Source: Thomasclavelia ramosa DSM 1402 (GTDB taxonomy: Bacteria > Bacillota_I > Bacilli_A > Erysipelotrichales > Coprobacillaceae). From it: DNA of 64,000 bases. How positions within the stretch are numbered: position 1 is the first letter of the stretch; every line of letters begins with the position of its first letter. The stretch lies in assembly GCF_014131695.1 (NCBI RefSeq), contig NZ_CP036346.1:558001-622000 (forward strand), in the 5' to 3' direction. The translations under genes were made by a program, and so were the position numbers. The notes below the pieces were generated by a model. It did not search any database. It was not told the origin of the DNA and saw nothing but the letters and a program-made list of their open reading frames with translations. Shown here in pieces: positions 1 through 59,814 of this stretch.

Positions 1-1278
1 ATTAATGAAATTGATGGAGTATTGGGCTCAACCTTTGGTGCCGGTCAATTTCAAATAATTATGGGGAAAAATTTATCTGCGACATTTACTCAAGTAGTTA
101 AAAATTATAATTTTGAAGTAGCAGAAATTATTGATGAAATTTTGGATGAAGATATTAAAGAAAAAGATGATTCGCCAATTTGGAAAAGAGGAATAAAAAA
201 TATTTTCAATTTCTTATCTGCATGTGTTACACCAATGATTCCTGGGCTTACTGTAGCTGGATTAATAAAAGTATTTTTGGTACTAACCTCATTAGCGTGG
301 CCGGAAATTGTTGATAATCAAACATATCTAGTTATAAATGGTATTGTTAATACTTCTTTCTACTTTATGCCTGTTTTTGTAGCATACGGTGCAGCAATCA
401 GATTAGGAAGTACACCTATTTATTCAATGATAGTAGCTTGTCTACTGATCCATCCAGATATTATTGGGATGTTAAGTGCTGAAGAGCCCTTAAAAATATT
501 AGGCTTCACAGCTTATTCAGCAAGTTATGCTTCATCTTTTTTACCAGCAATATTATCAACTGTAGCAGTTGCAAATATTGAAAAGCTTTTGAATAAGTAT
601 TTACCGGGAATGTTTAAAGGAATTTTTGTTGGTGGATTAACACTTGTTCTTGCAAGTCTTTTAACCCTTACTGTATTAGGCCCAATTGGTTTTTTTGCTG
701 GTGAATATTTTATTAATTTCTTAGTTTGGATGCAAAGCACGATTGGTCCATTTGCGCTTGGAGCTCTCGGTGGTGTATTGCCATTTGTAATAATGTCAGG
801 AATGCATACTGTTTTTGGCCCTGTAATGATGCAAAGTATTGCATCATTAGGTTATGAAGGTTTTTTAAGGCCAACACAATTTGTTCATAATGTTGCTGAG
901 GGAGGAGCTTGTTTTGGGGTAGCACTAAAAACTAAGAATCCAGAATTACGTTCACAAGCGATTAGTAGTGGTGTCGGGGCTATTCTAGCCGGGGTATCAG
1001 AGCCGGCTATCTACGGAATCAATCTGCGTCTAAAAAAGCCAATGTATGGTGTTATGGCTGGTGGTGCAGTTGGCGGTTGTATTGCTGGATTTTTTGGAGT
1101 AAAGGCATTTGCTTATGGTAATCCTAGTATTTTGGCACTTCCTATTTATGGGGAAACGATTATTGGCGTCATTATCGCAATTATTGCGGCATTTGTTGTA
1201 TCTAGTGTGGTGAGTTATTTCTCAGGATTTGAAGATGTTCCAGTAAAAAATAAAAACTTCCAACAAAATAGTCATTAG
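1..1278 (+). CDS. PTS EIIBC, glucose/beta-glucoside family (5' end missing)
   Basis: Sugar-specific permease that imports and phosphorylates a sugar, taking phosphate from an EIIA. The reading frame is open from base 1, so the start lies outside the window. The first ~45 visible codons are the tail of an EIIB domain (EIDGV...GQFQIIMG), whose active Cys is therefore not visible. The rest is a polytopic EIIC of about 370 residues with the family signature GVSEPAIYGINLRLKKP near nt 990-1040 and GMHTVFGP before it. EIIA follows 20 bases downstream, as in sucrose, trehalose and beta-glucoside systems. The substrate cannot be named from this fragment. Confidence 0.9.
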   Translation: MNEIDGVLGSTFGAGQFQIIMGKNLSATFTQVVKNYNFEVAEIIDEILDEDIKEKDDSPIWKRGIKNIFNFLSACVTPMIPGLTVAGLIKVFLVLTSLAWPEIVDNQTYLVINGIVNTSFYFMPVFVAYGAAIRLGSTPIYSMIVACLLIHPDIIGMLSAEEPLKILGFTAYSASYASSFLPAILSTVAVANIEKLLNKYLPGMFKGIFVGGLTLVLASLLTLTVLGPIGFFAGEYFINFLVWMQSTIGPFALGALGGVLPFVIMSGMHTVFGPVMMQSIASLGYEGFLRPTQFVHNVAEGGACFGVALKTKNPELRSQAISSGVGAILAGVSEPAIYGINLRLKKPMYGVMAGGAVGGCIAGFFGVKAFAYGNPSILALPIYGETIIGVIIAIIAAFVVSSVVSYFSGFEDVPVKNKNFQQNSH

Positions 1279-2040: not shown

Positions 2041-3438
2041 ATGGATGAATTCTTGAGTGAAATTTATATAGAGGTATTTAAACAGTGGATCTTAATGCAA
2101 AGTAATAAAAATTTAGCTATAAGTCTATCGGATGATTATAAAACGATTGCTATTAAGAATAAATATAGTACTAGCCAGGTTAATTTTTATAATATGAATA
2201 TAGTTGAATTTTCGGTTGAAAATTTAATAAAAAAAGAAGTTGAATTTTATCTCCATTTCCAAATTAAAAATATCAAACATGCAATTCAATTATTTGATGA
2301 AATGTTAGAAACGATCAAGCAATTAACAAATAAACCAGCTTTAAAAGTTTTACTTTGTTGTACTGGTGGGTTAACGACAGGTTATTTTGCTGATCGGATC
2401 AATCAAATAACAAAGTTACTTAATATCGATGTTCAAGTGTCTGCGGTTAGCTATAATAATCTTTATAAGGCTAGTGAAGATTATGACATGATTATGTTGG
2501 CACCACAAATCTCATATATGTATGCAAAGGTATGTGAGATTTTAAAAAATAAAATCGTTTTAAATATCCCGCCTGCTATATTTGCTAAATATGATGTAAA
2601 AAAGATGTTATCGATTATTGAAGAGGAGCGTAATTATAAACGAACCTTGGCAAAAGGAATGCATAAACCGTTGAAAGCTAAAAATATGCAGCCTAGTGGT
2701 GTTAAAACATTGTGTCTTGCTTTAATTAGGAATAGTAATCGTGTTCATATTGTGTACCGTTTATATGATGAAAATAATAGTATTTTAGAAAATAATGAAA
2801 TTATCAAACCTACTTTATCAATCCAAGATTATTATGATGTAATCGATAGCATGCTGGCTAAATATGTAGATATTAAAGTTATTGGATTATCGACTCCGGG
2901 AATTATACGTGGTGATCAGATTATCTCAATGAGTATAAAGGGGCTAGAGAAAATTTCAATTACTCATGATTTTACTTTGAAATATTCGCAAAAATTTGTT
3001 TTTAGTAATGATGCTAATACAATTGCTTTAGGCTATTATAGTTCTAAAGAAAACTGTTCATCACTGTCATTTGTTTTTCAACCGGTTAGTTCGAACTCAG
3101 GGGCAGGACATATTGTAAATGATCGTTTGATTGCTGGACACCATCATGTAGCTGGAGAAATACAATATTTGCCATTATCATATTCAAAAGATGTTTTAGA
3201 ATTACATCAAACACCAGAAGGAGCCATTGAAGCAATGGCTAAAACTGTTACATCAATAATCAGTTTTTTAGATCCGCAAATTATTGTTATATGTTGTTTT
3301 TTAATTACTAATATTGAAGAATTGAAAAAAGAGGTAGCTAAATATATTCCTAAAGATTATATTCCTGAAATTGTTTTAATTGATTATCTCCAAGAATATA
3401 TGTTATTAGGTACGCTATTATTATGTCATCAAGATTAA
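2041..3438 (+). CDS. EIIB-like domain fused to a ROK-like domain, copy 1
   Basis: 465-residue protein with three parts. Residues 1-98 are an unknown N-terminal domain carrying FYLHF and HAIQLFDEMLET. Residues 102-200 resemble a lactose/cellobiose-type PTS EIIB: VLLCCTGGLTT keeps the phosphorylatable Cys (C107), and DYDMIMLAPQISYM matches the EIIB core. Residues ~220-465 form a ROK-like fold (IGLSTPGI, SNDANTIAL, AGEIQYLP) but lack the GH and CxCGxxGC zinc motif of ROK kinases. No helix-turn-helix is seen. A homologue collinear over its full length lies at 58408-59814 and a broken one near 22.1-22.8 kb. I infer a PTS-linked sensor rather than a kinase; the function is unknown. Confidence 0.75.
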   Translation: MDEFLSEIYIEVFKQWILMQSNKNLAISLSDDYKTIAIKNKYSTSQVNFYNMNIVEFSVENLIKKEVEFYLHFQIKNIKHAIQLFDEMLETIKQLTNKPALKVLLCCTGGLTTGYFADRINQITKLLNIDVQVSAVSYNNLYKASEDYDMIMLAPQISYMYAKVCEILKNKIVLNIPPAIFAKYDVKKMLSIIEEERNYKRTLAKGMHKPLKAKNMQPSGVKTLCLALIRNSNRVHIVYRLYDENNSILENNEIIKPTLSIQDYYDVIDSMLAKYVDIKVIGLSTPGIIRGDQIISMSIKGLEKISITHDFTLKYSQKFVFSNDANTIALGYYSSKENCSSLSFVFQPVSSNSGAGHIVNDRLIAGHHHVAGEIQYLPLSYSKDVLELHQTPEGAIEAMAKTVTSIISFLDPQIIVICCFLITNIEELKKEVAKYIPKDYIPEIVLIDYLQEYMLLGTLLLCHQD

Positions 3439-24232: not shown

Positions 24233-25222
24233 GTGAATAGAATTGGAACTGGAAAACTACGAGATTTAAATGATCAAATCATTTTGAAATTGTTATTAAG
24301 ACATCAAGAAGTGACAAAAAAAGAACTAGCTAATTATTCAAGATTGACAGTAGCTACAGTAGGAACGATTCTTAATGATTTTTTGGATAATGGAACTGTT
24401 GTTGAAAAAGAAATTATTTATTTAAAAAAAGGTCGTCCTACTAAAAAATATGGATTGAATCCAGAATATTTTCATTCATTGTGTTTATTTGTACAAAGAA
24501 AAAGAGGCAGAGATTATCTTTGCTGGCAAATCATTGATGCCCTTGCAAGTGTACTAAAACAGGGTAAAGAATTAGTAAATGATTTAAAATTAGAGGATAT
24601 TTTAAAATTCATTAAATATCTTTTATCACAAGATTCGAGAATCCAAATAATTGGTTTAGGGGTACCGGCAATAATTTCTAAAGAGATAGTAATTGAATCA
24701 GATATTCCTAATTTAAAAAATGTAAATCTTAAAGCTGAAATCGAGAAGGCTACAGGATTAAAGACAGTTGTTAAAAATGATATGAATTATACTGCTTATG
24801 GCTGCTATTTACATAATAATAAAAAGGATCTTTGTTATGTGACGTTTCCATTAAATTCTGGACCTGGCTGTGGGAGTGTTATTAATGGTAAATTAATAGA
24901 AGGAGAAAATAGTATTGCTGGTGAAATCTTATATTTACCATTTTTTAAATACCTAAAACAAGAACAGTTATGCTTTGATTATTCACCAGAAGATGTGGCT
25001 TTATCATTATGTTGTGTAGCATCGATAATAAATCCTTCAATCGTGATTTTAACAGGTGAAGCTATTGAGGCTGATGATATATTAAAAATCAAGAAGATTT
25101 GTTTAGAGTATTTACCAAGTGAATTTATGCCTGAATTAACGTATTGTGCTAATTATGAAAATGATTATTTATTGGGAATACAGGAAGTTATTAGAGAAAG
25201 TTTCATTAAACAAGACAAATAA
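24233..25222 (+). CDS. ROK-family transcriptional regulator (NagC/XylR-like)
   Basis: 329 residues. The N-terminal winged HTH, about 15-70, reads VTKKELANYSRLTVATVGTILNDFL. The C-terminal ROK domain has IIGLGVPAII, VKNDMNYTAYG with the Asp of the kinase motif kept, and AGEILYLPF in place of the AGExGH zinc region; the CxCGxxGC motif is absent. GTG start at 24233. The ROK half resembles the ROK halves of the EIIB fusion proteins (AGEIxYLP, the C-terminal LPSEFMPEL block). Likely a sugar-responsive repressor. Confidence 0.82.
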   Translation: MNRIGTGKLRDLNDQIILKLLLRHQEVTKKELANYSRLTVATVGTILNDFLDNGTVVEKEIIYLKKGRPTKKYGLNPEYFHSLCLFVQRKRGRDYLCWQIIDALASVLKQGKELVNDLKLEDILKFIKYLLSQDSRIQIIGLGVPAIISKEIVIESDIPNLKNVNLKAEIEKATGLKTVVKNDMNYTAYGCYLHNNKKDLCYVTFPLNSGPGCGSVINGKLIEGENSIAGEILYLPFFKYLKQEQLCFDYSPEDVALSLCCVASIINPSIVILTGEAIEADDILKIKKICLEYLPSEFMPELTYCANYENDYLLGIQEVIRESFIKQDK

Positions 25223-53269: not shown

Positions 53270-54145
<876 letters not shown>

Positions 54146-54225
54146 ATTATTAAAGCAAGATGAAAGCTAGATAGCTTTATAGTGAACTAGTCAGAATCTA
54201 CAATATACTAGGAGGTAAAATATTA

Positions 54226-55071
54226 ATGAGAATAATTGAATTGAGTAATGGTGTGAAGATGCCGATCATTGGTTTTGGAACAATTGGACAGTTTGGTAAA
54301 CAAGTAGAAGATAATGTTTCTTTTGCTTTACAAAATGGGTATCGTTTGATCGATACAGCTAATCGCTATACTAATGAAAAAAGTGTAGGTAGAGGTATTA
54401 GTAAAAGTGGATTGGATAGAAAAGAAATTTTTATTGAGACAAAATTAGCTCCGACGTTTTATGAAAAAAGTAATGCTGTTGAGCAAACATTAGAACGGTT
54501 GGGAGTTGAATATATTGATCTGATGCTGTTGCATCACCCTTTAAATAATTATATTGCGGGTTATCAAATGATGGAAAAAGCTTATAAGGAGGGGAAAATC
54601 AAAGCACTAGGGTTATCTAATTTTAAGGTTGAACAAATTCAAGAAATTTTGGATATTTGTGAAATTAAACCAGTAGTAATGCAAATTGAATGTCATCCTT
54701 ATTATCCGGCTGAAAAGGTAAAAGATTTTTGTTTTGAAAATGGGATTATTCTACAATCATGGTATCCTTTAGGGCATGGTAGTAATGAATTGTTAAATGA
54801 ACCGTTATTTAAAGCATTAGCAATTAAATATCATAAGACAACGTCTCAAATTATTTTGAAATGGCACACGCAAATGGGGTTTAGTGCAGTACCGGGAAGT
54901 AGAAGTGCTAATCACATTTTAGAAAATATCGAGTTATTTGATTTTGTACTAACAAATGAAGAAATGTATGAAATAGCAAAACTAAATAAACATTGTCCAT
55001 TTTATCAAATAACTGAAAAATCACAGCATATACTGGCAACAACAATTCCAGATGTTGACGGTGAGGAATAA
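54226..55071 (+). CDS. Aldo/keto reductase 2
   Basis: 281-residue reductase of the same superfamily but more divergent: MPIIGFGTIGQ, LIDTANRYTNE with the catalytic Asp, LMLLHHPLNN, LGLSNFKVEQI and AVPGSRSANHILEN. AGGAGGT precedes the ATG. It lies 80 bases after the first reductase and 16 bases before the third. Substrate unknown; likely reactive aldehydes or sugar-derived carbonyls. Confidence 0.9.
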   Translation: MRIIELSNGVKMPIIGFGTIGQFGKQVEDNVSFALQNGYRLIDTANRYTNEKSVGRGISKSGLDRKEIFIETKLAPTFYEKSNAVEQTLERLGVEYIDLMLLHHPLNNYIAGYQMMEKAYKEGKIKALGLSNFKVEQIQEILDICEIKPVVMQIECHPYYPAEKVKDFCFENGIILQSWYPLGHGSNELLNEPLFKALAIKYHKTTSQIILKWHTQMGFSAVPGSRSANHILENIELFDFVLTNEEMYEIAKLNKHCPFYQITEKSQHILATTIPDVDGEE

Positions 55072-55087
55072 TAAGGGGGATAAGATT

Positions 55088-55957
55088 ATGGAATATATTA
55101 TTTTAAATAATCAAATAGAAATGCCAATTTTAGGTTTAGGGGTATTTCAAGTACCGGATAAAAAAGAATGTCAAGAAACTGTATTTCAAGCAATTAAAGC
55201 GGGGTATCGATTAATTGATACAGCAGCTTCTTATATGAATGAAGATGCTGTAGGAAATGCTGTTAAGCAAGCTATTGAAGCGGGAATCTGTACGAGAGAA
55301 GAGCTGTTTATTACATCAAAATTATGGGTGCAAGATATGCGAACATATGAAACAGCAAAACAGGGAATTGAAAATTCATTGAAAAAAAGTGGATTGGAAT
55401 ATTTTGATTTATATTTACTTCATCAAGCAATGGGAGATTACTTTGCTGCATGGCGGGCTATGGAAGATGCATATCATAAAGGAAAGTTAAGAGCTATAGG
55501 TGTTTCTAATTTCTATCCAAATATATTAACGAATTTTTGTGAAATTGTAGAAATTAAGCCAATGGTTAACCAGATAGAACTGCATCCATATTTTACTCAG
55601 GAGCAAGCAATAGAGACAATGAAATATTATGATGTTGTTCCTGAAGCATGGGCACCATTAGGAGGCGGTAGATATAATCCTTTTGAAGATGAGATGTTAA
55701 AAGGAATTGCTGAAAAATATCATAAGACAGTGGGTCAAGTATTACTTCGGTGGAATATTCAAAGAGATGTTGTTGTAATCCCTAAATCAACTCATATAGA
55801 GAGAATTATTGAAAATATTAATGTATTTGATTTTGAGTTGAATAATGATGAGATGAAAAAAATTTCATCCTTAGATATGGGATATAGTGGTTCACGGGCT
55901 AAACACTTTGAACCTGATTTTGTAAGGATGGTTGTTCATAGGAAAATCCATGAATAA
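55088..55957 (+). CDS. Aldo/keto reductase 3
   Basis: 289-residue reductase: MPILGLGVFQVPD, the catalytic Asp in LIDTAASYMNED, LYLLHQAMGD with the catalytic His, IGVSNFYPNIL and VIPKSTHIERIIEN for NADP(H) binding. The ATG at 55088 follows AAGGGGG; an earlier in-frame Met lies inside the previous gene. Closest in the window to reductase 1, consistent with tandem duplication. Confidence 0.92.
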   Translation: MEYIILNNQIEMPILGLGVFQVPDKKECQETVFQAIKAGYRLIDTAASYMNEDAVGNAVKQAIEAGICTREELFITSKLWVQDMRTYETAKQGIENSLKKSGLEYFDLYLLHQAMGDYFAAWRAMEDAYHKGKLRAIGVSNFYPNILTNFCEIVEIKPMVNQIELHPYFTQEQAIETMKYYDVVPEAWAPLGGGRYNPFEDEMLKGIAEKYHKTVGQVLLRWNIQRDVVVIPKSTHIERIIENINVFDFELNNDEMKKISSLDMGYSGSRAKHFEPDFVRMVVHRKIHE

Positions 55958-55985
55958 AAAATAGATTATTAAAGGAGTGAAAAAA

Positions 55986-56402
55986 ATGAGTATATTATTT
56001 ATTAACGGAAGTCCTAATAAAAATGGTAATACGGTTGCTTTAAGTGAGCAATTTCTAAAGGGTAAAAATTATCAGACATTGCATTTAGTAGATTATAAGA
56101 TTTATAGTTATGGTCAGCATTTTACAGATGATCAATTTGATGAAGTTGTTTTAGCGATGAGTAAAGCTGATACAATTGTAATTGGCTCACCGCTTTATTG
56201 GCATAGTATGTCTGGAGCTGTTCGTAATCTATTAGACCGGTTTTATCAACATGTTGATGAAAGTTTATTAAAGGGTAAAAACATGTATTTTATCTTCCAA
56301 GGTTATGCTCCAACGAAACAACAATTAGAAGCAGGGGAATATACAATGCAGCGTTTTGCAAATTTATATGGAATGAATTATCGTGGGATGATTACTGAAT
56401 AA
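55986..56402 (+). CDS. Flavodoxin-like NAD(P)H reductase family protein
   Basis: 138-residue flavodoxin-fold protein. The FMN phosphate loop is INGSPNKNGNT near residues 6-16 and the second loop is IGSPLYWHSMSGAVRNLLDRF. The ATG at 55986 is preferred over a GTG at 55977 because AAAGGAG stands 8 bases before it. Shorter than most quinone reductases. It lies between aldo-keto reductases, consistent with a shared redox detoxification operon. Confidence 0.85.
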   Translation: MSILFINGSPNKNGNTVALSEQFLKGKNYQTLHLVDYKIYSYGQHFTDDQFDEVVLAMSKADTIVIGSPLYWHSMSGAVRNLLDRFYQHVDESLLKGKNMYFIFQGYAPTKQQLEAGEYTMQRFANLYGMNYRGMITE

Positions 56403-56416
56403 GAAAGGATAATGCT

Positions 56417-57394
56417 ATGATGATAAAAAGACAGTTAGGGAAAACGAATATGTATGTCAGTCCGATAGGATTAGGCTGTATGGGATTTTCTCATGCTTAT
56501 GGCTTAGCTGAAGATAAAGAGAGAGCAATTCAAACTATTAAGCAGGCTTATAAAATGGGTTATAATTTTTTTGATACGGCTGAATGTTATACTGGTGAGA
56601 ATACTGATGGAACTATTTCTTATAATGAAGAGCTTGTAGGTGAAGCATTAAAGGAGGTAAGAGAACAGGTTGTTATTGCAACTAAATTTGGAGTTGAACA
56701 TAAAGGGGATCATTTAGAATTAGATTCCTCACCAGAAAAAATATATGCATCGATAGAAGGATCATTAAAGAAATTACAGACTGATTATATTGATTTATAT
56801 TATCAACATAGGATAGATCCTAAAGTTGAACCTGAAGTAGTGGCTGGAGTTATGAAGGAATTGATTGCAGCGGGTAAAATTAAAGCATGGGGAATTTCGG
56901 AGACAACAGAAGAATATTTAAGAAGAGCACATGCTGTTTGCCCAGTTACAGCTATTCAAAATAGATATTCAATGATGGCTAGATGGTATGAAGATTTATT
57001 CGTTGTTTGTAAAGAGTTAGGAATAACTTATGTAGCTTTTTCTCCAATGGCTAATGGATTACTTTCAGGGAAATTTACACCAGATTCTACCTTTGAAAAA
57101 GGGGATTTTAGAAATAATATGCCTCAATATCAAAAAGAAGGGTATGAAAAAGCAAAAAAATTATTGAATTTGTTAAAAGTATTATCAGAAAAGAAAAATT
57201 GTACTATGGCTCAACTTTCAATAGCATGGATGCTAAGAAAAAAGGATTTTATTGTGCCTATCCCGGGAAGCAGAAAATTAGAACGTTTAGAAGAAAATTT
57301 TAGAGCAGGGGAAATTGAAGTTACAATTGATGAAATCAAAGAAATTGATGCTTTATTAGATACAATTGATTTTGATGTCTTCGGCGGACATTAA
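56417..57394 (+). CDS. Aldo/keto reductase 4 (YakC/AKR13-like)
   Basis: 325-residue reductase of the longer type: QLGKTNMYVSPIGLGCMGFSHAYG, the catalytic Asp in FFDTAECY, DLYYQHRIDP with the catalytic His, WGISETTEEYLRRAHAV, FSPMANGLLSGKF and VPIPGSRKLERLEEN. This pattern fits stress- or pyridoxal-related aldo-keto reductases rather than the three short paralogues upstream. AAAGGA precedes the ATG. An esterase starts 2 bases after its stop. Confidence 0.92.
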   Translation: MMIKRQLGKTNMYVSPIGLGCMGFSHAYGLAEDKERAIQTIKQAYKMGYNFFDTAECYTGENTDGTISYNEELVGEALKEVREQVVIATKFGVEHKGDHLELDSSPEKIYASIEGSLKKLQTDYIDLYYQHRIDPKVEPEVVAGVMKELIAAGKIKAWGISETTEEYLRRAHAVCPVTAIQNRYSMMARWYEDLFVVCKELGITYVAFSPMANGLLSGKFTPDSTFEKGDFRNNMPQYQKEGYEKAKKLLNLLKVLSEKKNCTMAQLSIAWMLRKKDFIVPIPGSRKLERLEENFRAGEIEVTIDEIKEIDALLDTIDFDVFGGH

Positions 57395-58407: not shown

Positions 58408-59814
58408 ATGACTGAAAAAAAGGCAGTTTTTGATTTTAAAGGTTGGATTCGAGAGCATCATAATACTCCATATGAGATTCGTTTAGAAAACGATGATCTT
58501 ATTAAATTAGTAACTGAATACGGTGAGGCATCGATTCAATTTACAGTAATTGAGGAATATACAATCGTTGAATTTAGTATTGTTTCAAATAAGGATCATT
58601 CTGTTAAATTCTATCTTCATTTTGAACTCAATGATGAAAATCATGCAAAGCAATTATATGATGAGATGGTTGAAACATTGATTGGGTTAAAAGAAGAAAA
58701 AACTTTGCGTGTTTTATTATCATGTTCGGCAGGACTTACAACTTCTATGTTTGCTGATAATTTAAATTCTGTAGCAGGAATGTTAGGGTTAGATTACCAT
58801 TTTGATGCAGTATCTTATATGAGTATTTATGAAGAAGCAGAAAAGTATGATGTAATTTTAATTGCACCACAAATTGGGTATATGCTCAAACGTTTAAAAG
58901 AGAGTATCACAGAAAAGCCGGTATTACAAATACCAACATCGGTATTTGCTTCGTATGATGCTTTAGCTGCTTTAAAGTTTATTCAAAGTGAGCTTGAGAT
59001 TTTCCGCCAAGAAAAAAGTAATGAGCAAGCGCATGAATGTACCCATTGTGCAGAATATGAAAATCGTATCTTATCAATTGTTATTTTGATTAGTAGAGAG
59101 CAGACACGTATTTATTATCGGTTAAATGATAAATGTGAAATAATTGATAGTAACCTTGTCATTAAACCTACAATGAATATATACGATCTCTACGATATTA
59201 TTGATACCATTTTATTAAAACATTCTTACATTGATATGATTGGAATTGCGACACCGGGTATTGTTAAAGATGAAAAGCAGTTGAAAGAACCAACAGATGG
59301 AAGAACTATTGATATAAAAGCTGATTTTGAAGATAAATATGGAATTGATGTTTTTGTTTATAATAATGCAAATGCAGCAGTTGTAGGTTTTTCTTTAGAA
59401 CATCCAGAGTATGATAATATTATTTTCCATTCACAGCCATTTGGATTTGGGGTAGGGGGACAAGGAATAATTTCTAATGGTAAAGTAATTAGAGGGAAAA
59501 ATGGTATAGCAGGTGAGATAAGATATTTTATCCGACGGATGCAATTATCTGATGATGTTCATAAACTGGCTTGGACACAGCATGGAGCCGTAGAGCTCGT
59601 AACAAAATCGTTACTTCCAACTATTTCGCTCATTGGACCCGAAGCTGTAGTGATAAGTTCACCAATGACACCGGATATGGATGAAGTAAAAAATGTGCTA
59701 TCCTCTTTTATTGATAAAGAATTTTTACCTGAATTTTATTATATTAAAGAAGCCAGCTCTTATATGTTAAGCGGAATTACAAAATTATGTGTTGATTTTA
59801 TTGAAGAAGAGTAG
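58408..59814 (+). CDS. EIIB-like domain fused to a ROK-like domain, copy 2
   Basis: 468-residue protein collinear with the one at 2041. The N-terminal domain carries FYLHFEL and HAKQLYDEMVET. The EIIB-like domain has RVLLSCSAGLTTS with the phosphorylatable Cys C106, then KYDVILIAPQIGYM. The ROK-like domain has IGIATPGI and AGEIRYF. The ROK Asp is replaced: NDAN reads NNAN here, and the zinc motif is absent, so kinase activity is very unlikely. No DNA-binding domain is seen. It has its own terminators on both sides and no adjacent PTS operon. Probably a sensor or adaptor; function unknown. Confidence 0.75.
   Translation: MTEKKAVFDFKGWIREHHNTPYEIRLENDDLIKLVTEYGEASIQFTVIEEYTIVEFSIVSNKDHSVKFYLHFELNDENHAKQLYDEMVETLIGLKEEKTLRVLLSCSAGLTTSMFADNLNSVAGMLGLDYHFDAVSYMSIYEEAEKYDVILIAPQIGYMLKRLKESITEKPVLQIPTSVFASYDALAALKFIQSELEIFRQEKSNEQAHECTHCAEYENRILSIVILISREQTRIYYRLNDKCEIIDSNLVIKPTMNIYDLYDIIDTILLKHSYIDMIGIATPGIVKDEKQLKEPTDGRTIDIKADFEDKYGIDVFVYNNANAAVVGFSLEHPEYDNIIFHSQPFGFGVGGQGIISNGKVIRGKNGIAGEIRYFIRRMQLSDDVHKLAWTQHGAVELVTKSLLPTISLIGPEAVVISSPMTPDMDEVKNVLSSFIDKEFLPEFYYIKEASSYMLSGITKLCVDFIEEE

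Follow-up and report, generated by a model that had tools for sequence, protein, structure and literature searches.

EIIB-ROK fusion proteins in the order Erysipelotrichales: putative PTS-linked signalling proteins without a helix-turn-helix

Two proteins encoded by Thomasclavelia ramosa DSM 1402 combine, in this order, an N-terminal domain, a lactose/cellobiose-type EIIB domain of the phosphotransferase system (PTS) and a ROK domain without a helix-turn-helix (HTH). Judged from their sequences and by analogy with known regulators, the fused proteins may be non-catalytic signalling proteins that respond to both PTS phosphorylation and sugar and act by protein contact, a reading to which we give an even chance. 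Both genes lie in the window, the whole stretch of DNA analysed here (64,000 nucleotides, C1:558001-622000 of the 3.25 Mb genome). The first-pass annotation of this DNA knew of no described family with such a domain order; no published description of an EIIB-ROK fusion family was found in the open-licence literature either, and the family is apparently undescribed.

The open reading frames, which are mechanical calls, are intact in both cases, copy 1 (2041..3438, plus strand) encoding 465 aa and copy 2 (58408..59814, plus strand) 468 aa, with 34% identity between the products over 456 aa (E 2e-85). In both proteins the N-terminal domain is followed by EIIB (residues about 100-196), a short linker and the ROK domain (about 220 to the end). 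In copy 1, with all parts on the plus strand, the N-terminal alpha-beta5-alpha domain (residues 1-98; 2041..2334; fold modelled on copy 2) is followed by the EIIB domain (residues 101-196; 2341..2628; Pfam match, fold from copy 2), in which the codon of Cys107, the presumed phosphorylation site, lies at 2359..2361. The linker (residues 197-221; 2629..2703), with a mean conservation of 25%, stands where the HTH of the proposed parental repressor would have been, and the ROK domain (residues 222-465; 2704..3435) carries the motif NDAN at residues 323-326 (3007..3018). The corresponding parts of copy 2, likewise on the plus strand, are the N-terminal domain (residues 1-97; 58408..58698), the EIIB domain (residues 100-192; 58705..58986; Pfam and fold match) with the codon of its presumed phosphorylation site, Cys106, at 58723..58725, and the ROK domain (residues 219-468; 59062..59811; fold match), in which NNAN (59362..59373) replaces NDAN.

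The two full-length fusions reported in the first-pass annotation were upheld in all three respects, the integrity of the genes, the EIIB-type middle region with its Cys and the ROK-like half. The Pfam PTS_IIB profile (PF02302; cut-off 23.6) matched copy 1 with 35.1 bits and copy 2 with 43.3 bits, and the ROK profile (PF00480; cut-off 22.9) matched them with 52.2 and 49.6 bits, respectively. In an AlphaFold model of full-length copy 2, built from an alignment of 4 sequences and with a mean pLDDT of 72, residues 99-201 matched the EIIB of the E. coli cellobiose system (1iib) with a Z of 18.0 and an rmsd of 1.3 over 103 residues, and Cys107 and Cys106 occupy the active-site position. A structure search on the middle region had been named beforehand as a possible refutation, and this match confirmed the EIIB fold. 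Residues 216-468 matched ROK structures at Z of about 20, among them 2hoe (Z 20.8, rmsd 2.8 over 232 residues), and 3bp8, the complex of Mlc with EIIB, was also among the fold matches. Since the model agrees with 1iib and with ROK structures, the middle region is an EIIB fold and the protein has no HTH.

The family was followed with a search profile covering the N-terminal domain and the start of EIIB, the two domains together being designated NB. All genomes (43/43) and all genera (20/20) of the family to which the window belongs have NB, as do 83/295 genomes of its order, Erysipelotrichales. In wider samples, drawn evenly and including incomplete metagenome bins, the class gave 20/395 and the phylum 20/392 positive genomes, every one of them inside the order, to which the NB family is restricted. 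No NB homologue was found in viral contigs, plasmids or phages, of which the plasmids and phages matched the ROK part only. NB occurs by itself, in a gene that overlaps the gene of an HTH-ROK repressor, or joined to ROK in one protein, and by length the reading frames form two classes, one of about 200-240 aa for NB and one of about 456-520 aa for the fusions. A coherent family with the three-domain order, which the first-pass annotation had proposed from two sequences, thus exists across the order. The genome of the window contains three fused copies, of which the third is 46% and copy 2 35% identical to copy 1, together with one copy with a decayed ROK, one pair of NB and HTH-ROK genes, the second starting 3 bases after the first, and three stand-alone NB genes. 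At L031:8910-9596 and downstream (G000:C1:276951-277898), an NB gene of intact appearance precedes a remnant of ROK that is interrupted by two in-frame TAA. Four other genomes of the same genus (G035, G037, G038 and G042) have one NB match each, in open frames of 210-232 aa that hold NB alone, and G042 has neither a fused copy nor a zinc-less HTH-ROK. A ROK partner thus seems dispensable for the working of NB.

The alignment of the fused proteins has 64 rows, 63 of them distinct, with a median pairwise identity of 34%. Cys107, T112, P155 and Q156 of EIIB are conserved in 100% of the rows, and mean conservation reaches 84% in the P-loop and 99% in the APQ segment as against 60% for EIIB overall. 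Among stand-alone or paired NB proteins the Cys is kept in 30/33 and lost in three, so that phosphorylation does not extend to every member of the wider family. EIIA-Lac was present in 27/27 and EI in 26/27 of the NB-bearing genomes checked, so phosphate donors exist. The co-occurrence of EIIA-Lac was considered as a diagnostic and dropped, because EIIA-Lac is common across the order (148/192), and its presence consequently supports the phosphorylation reading only weakly.

The ROK half has the fold of a sugar kinase with the catalytic apparatus removed, as had been suggested at first sight. DxGxT and GTGxGG (phosphate-1 and phosphate-2) and the adenosine GG are gone in essentially all fused members, and this loss is common to the fused proteins and their HTH-bearing relatives, the GG of DxGGT falling from 100% in kinases to about 0 and the adenosine GG from 100% to 0. 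An active sugar kinase coupled to the PTS, which the fold itself and the retention of the NDxN Asp in 53/64 rows might recall, is with these losses a most improbable reading. The ExGH His is also lost, and the Cys-bearing zinc lid is deleted in all fused rows, including both copies of the window, in which the zinc motif had already been noted as missing. The residues of the ROK sugar pocket are kept (PG 100%, Asn 98%, Asp about 80%, G 100%, E 98%), and P286, G287 and G372 are present in 100% of the 64 fused rows. With the ATP motifs lost and the PG, Asn, Asp and Glu of the pocket retained, the sequences suggest that the fused ROK domain cannot bind ATP in the usual way and yet may bind sugar. 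The replacement of NDAN by NNAN in copy 2, also seen in the first-pass annotation, is a trait of a subclade: Asn occurs at this position in 10/64 rows, nearly all of them close to copy 2. Since the ExGH His is lost and Asn stands for Asp in the clade of copy 2, proteins of this clade may bind sugar less well or not at all.

No winged HTH was found in the fused rows, which have a linker of about 25 aa where the HTH-ROK relatives have about 75 aa of HTH, and neither copy of the window gave a PRD or HTH match in Pfam or NCBIfam. The HTH is present in both the paired and the orphan ROK genes. A hidden HTH at the N-terminus was considered and rejected, the extra N-terminal segments in L114, L115 and L123 being read as upstream mis-called starts, and the N-terminal domain itself is alpha-beta5-alpha; the proteins therefore lack a DNA-binding HTH, as first described.

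The zinc-less ROK subfamily with an HTH occurs both as orphans and as the second gene of the NB and HTH-ROK pairs. One orphan regulator of this zinc-less and ATP-site-less subfamily, not part of a fusion, is encoded in the window itself (24233..25222, plus strand), and the pairs, mostly of overlapping genes, were found in the genome of the window, in a genus mate, and in G011, G007 and G027. In a tree of the ROK domains, the 52 from fused proteins cluster together with an SH-aLRT of 99, while the HTH-bearing ROKs branch outside this cluster and the kinases further out still; a more careful tree with fewer rows kept the fused grouping with an SH-aLRT of 100, but its ultrafast bootstrap was no higher than 48. 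In the NB tree, a single group (SH-aLRT 99) likewise unites the fused proteins with two that have a decayed ROK, the paired NBs lying outside, and in an unrooted tree of the joined halves the split between fused and paired forms is supported at 100/100. Because the trees of both halves group the fused proteins beside the paired ones, it is most likely that an operonic pair fused once and the HTH was lost in the event, NB having replaced the HTH of an operonic NagC/Mlc-like repressor; the direction of the change is given by the rooted single-half trees and by the HTH shared with the orphan ROK genes. A very divergent HTH-ROK of the zinc-less type (G000:C1:3088944-3089291; L139:1162-2157) sits on a long branch, and its place in the tree is unsure.

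This close ROK kinship, together with the four zinc-less HTH-ROK genes in the genome of the window and the operonic pairs, could also be taken to mean that the fused proteins, through their HTH-less ROK half, form pairs with zinc-less HTH-ROK paralogues, which would be blocked or released depending on the phosphorylation of EIIB. We regard such modulation as improbable, since fused proteins occur without any zinc-less HTH-ROK match in seven genomes (G025, G031, G051, G070, G102, G161 and G190) and it is thus not the general mechanism, unless canonical ROK repressors serve as partners. An obligate heterodimer with HTH-ROK was ruled out by the same observation, made in at least seven genomes.

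The N-terminal domain is shared by both copies, as the first-pass annotation had stated, but is not wholly without known relatives. Folded alone, that of copy 2 gave a confident AlphaFold model (alpha-beta5-alpha, pLDDT 86), whose best structural match is the TriTu immunity protein (7zhm_C; Z 9.4, rmsd 2.1, 80/87 residues), followed by CyaY/frataxin-like folds (Z 8.9). Foldseek with this domain gave no match below E 0.001, the PUR and Whirly folds standing at E 0.3-1.8, and a PDB profile search with it returned nothing significant. The Pfam TriTu model (PF24689) matched 6/30 N-terminal domains, all under the cut-off, over model positions 3-90 of 91; in a six-frame search of 60 genomes it gave nine matches, all on N-terminal domains of the NB family, the best at 26.3 bits against a cut-off of 27. 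From the fold match and these sub-threshold profile matches, the domain is either distantly related to the TriTu fold or structurally analogous to it; a distant kinship is likely, and a shared function is not implied. L71, H72, F73 and E87 are found in 100% of the 64 fused rows, and E56, H72 and E87 are highly conserved polar residues.

TriTu confers immunity against an Rhs ADP-ribosyltransferase. If the likeness extended to function, the N-terminal domain would neutralise a toxin under the control of EIIB and ROK, in keeping with the best fold match and with the fall of all nine profile matches on NB-family domains. Such a role is highly unlikely: all TriTu scores are under the cut-off, no toxin gene was recognised beside these genes, and the stand-alone NB genes lie in stable synteny in housekeeping surroundings. 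The N-terminal domain differs from TriTu also in being embedded in a PTS/ROK protein and in having no visible Rhs toxin context. A direct nucleic-acid-binding regulator deserves more weight, though it too is unlikely. According to this proposal, the N-terminal domain would bind DNA or RNA and be tuned by EIIB and ROK, making the protein an antiterminator or transcription factor whose binding domain would be new. The conserved polar residues, the weak Foldseek likeness to the PUR and Whirly nucleic-acid-binding folds and the diverse, operon-like neighbourhoods, as expected for local regulators, agree with it. However, the E-values for PUR and Whirly are poor and the TriTu and frataxin-like folds match better, while no HTH signature was found and no Rfam element was detected in the window.

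Copy 1 is located about 250 bases downstream of a bgl operon that comprises GH1, a BglG-type antiterminator, EIIBC and EIIA, and the EIIBC gene of which begins before the edge of the window, the frame listed from 22 (22-1278, plus strand) being an internal start. Ahead of copy 2 stands a series of aldo-keto reductase genes together with an esterase-like gene; just upstream (53276-57394, plus strand) are four aldo-keto reductase genes and one flavodoxin-like reductase, an arrangement that is similar in G033 (L085). Among 50 immediate neighbours of fused genes, no family recurred as a partner in more than 4/50 (Hydrolase_3). The intact EIIB active site and the proximity of some copies to EIIC or EIIB genes might suggest that the protein simply serves as the EIIB of a Lac-family EIIC, the ROK half being carried along. 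Such an accessory transport role is quite improbable, because the EIIBC ahead of copy 1 already carries its own Glc-superfamily EIIB, the transporters with small EIIB genes near L030, L031, L069 and L119 are self-supplied, most fused genes have no adjoining EIIC and none is a constant neighbour, and the residues of the ROK pocket are conserved.

Several local arrangements recur around subsets of these genes. Stand-alone NB has conserved surroundings at ten loci (L034, L071, L074, L076, L080, L086, L091, L097, L106 and L107), with a divergent metallophosphoesterase gene upstream, HflX, PerR and rubrerythrin genes downstream and often an RpiR-type regulator nearby; at L074 and L106 the EIIB Cys is lost. 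In six genomes (L068, L077, L083, L088, L093 and L098), the members of one orthologous group of fused genes have the gene of a 142-aa P-loop protein (GKPGSGKS) as their immediate downstream neighbour. In one genus of a second family (L108, L110, L112 and L113), three conserved genes (clusters c42, c43 and c44) are located directly upstream of the fused gene, with an overlap in L108; judging by their sequences, the products include an AAA-type ATPase and a repeat protein.

For the signalling reading, the following scheme is proposed. EIIB would take phosphate from the PTS, probably from EIIA-Lac, and in this way read sugar flux, while the ROK half would bind sugar without phosphorylating it, both inputs together setting the conformation of the protein, which would thus probably serve as a joint sensor of sugar and of the energy state of the cell. 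Its action would be exerted by binding another protein through the NB module. As NB also survives alone, it may be regarded as the output-bearing core and ROK as an added sugar input.

The nearest known parallel is the pair of Mlc and PtsG in E. coli. The EIIB that Mlc contacts is of the Glc type and not of the Lac type. Dephosphorylated EIICB(Glc) captures Mlc (PMC3901232), and contact with EIIB, reporting the state of PTS phosphorylation, sets the state of the ROK protein (3bp8; PMC3901232); the fused proteins would work like this Mlc-EIIB(Glc) contact within one chain. In contrast to that system, the EIIB is here Lac-type, soluble and covalently joined to ROK or encoded by an overlapping neighbour gene, so that the contact in cis is predicted from fusion and operon pairing, and the fused form has neither HTH nor zinc site. 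With HTH-ROK repressors of the NagC, XylR and Lmo0178 type the proteins share the ROK fold with its sugar pocket, and the split pairs keep the HTH, whereas in the fused proteins NB has replaced it and the zinc lid is deleted. The fold, active-site Cys and phosphate loop are those of lactose/cellobiose EIIBs (CelA and ChbB; 1iib), but this EIIB is fused on both sides, and nearby transporters have their own. In the PRD regulators MtlR, ManR and LicR, an EIIB-like domain serves regulation and not transport (PMC6148471), a role also proposed here, although PRD, HTH and EIIA are missing and a Lac-type EIIB is joined to ROK instead.

More tentatively, the family could represent a new class of PTS signal transducers confined to one order, in which the DNA-binding domain of a repressor was swapped for an EIIB module that can be phosphorylated and that brings along a TriTu-like interaction domain, giving two-input proteins that do not bind DNA, have many paralogues per genome and address a new class of targets. 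ROK and EIIB partners of the Mlc-PtsG type would have been joined by evolution and the DNA-binding part discarded, with the split intermediate alive in present genomes, and the fusion makes the integration of PTS phosphorylation and sugar binding in one chain testable. In this order, an annotation such as 'ROK family protein' or 'PTS IIB' does not necessarily denote a kinase, repressor or transporter, and the NB family may explain part of the sugar regulation in a group of gut bacteria whose PTS repertoires are large and in which the family has many paralogues.
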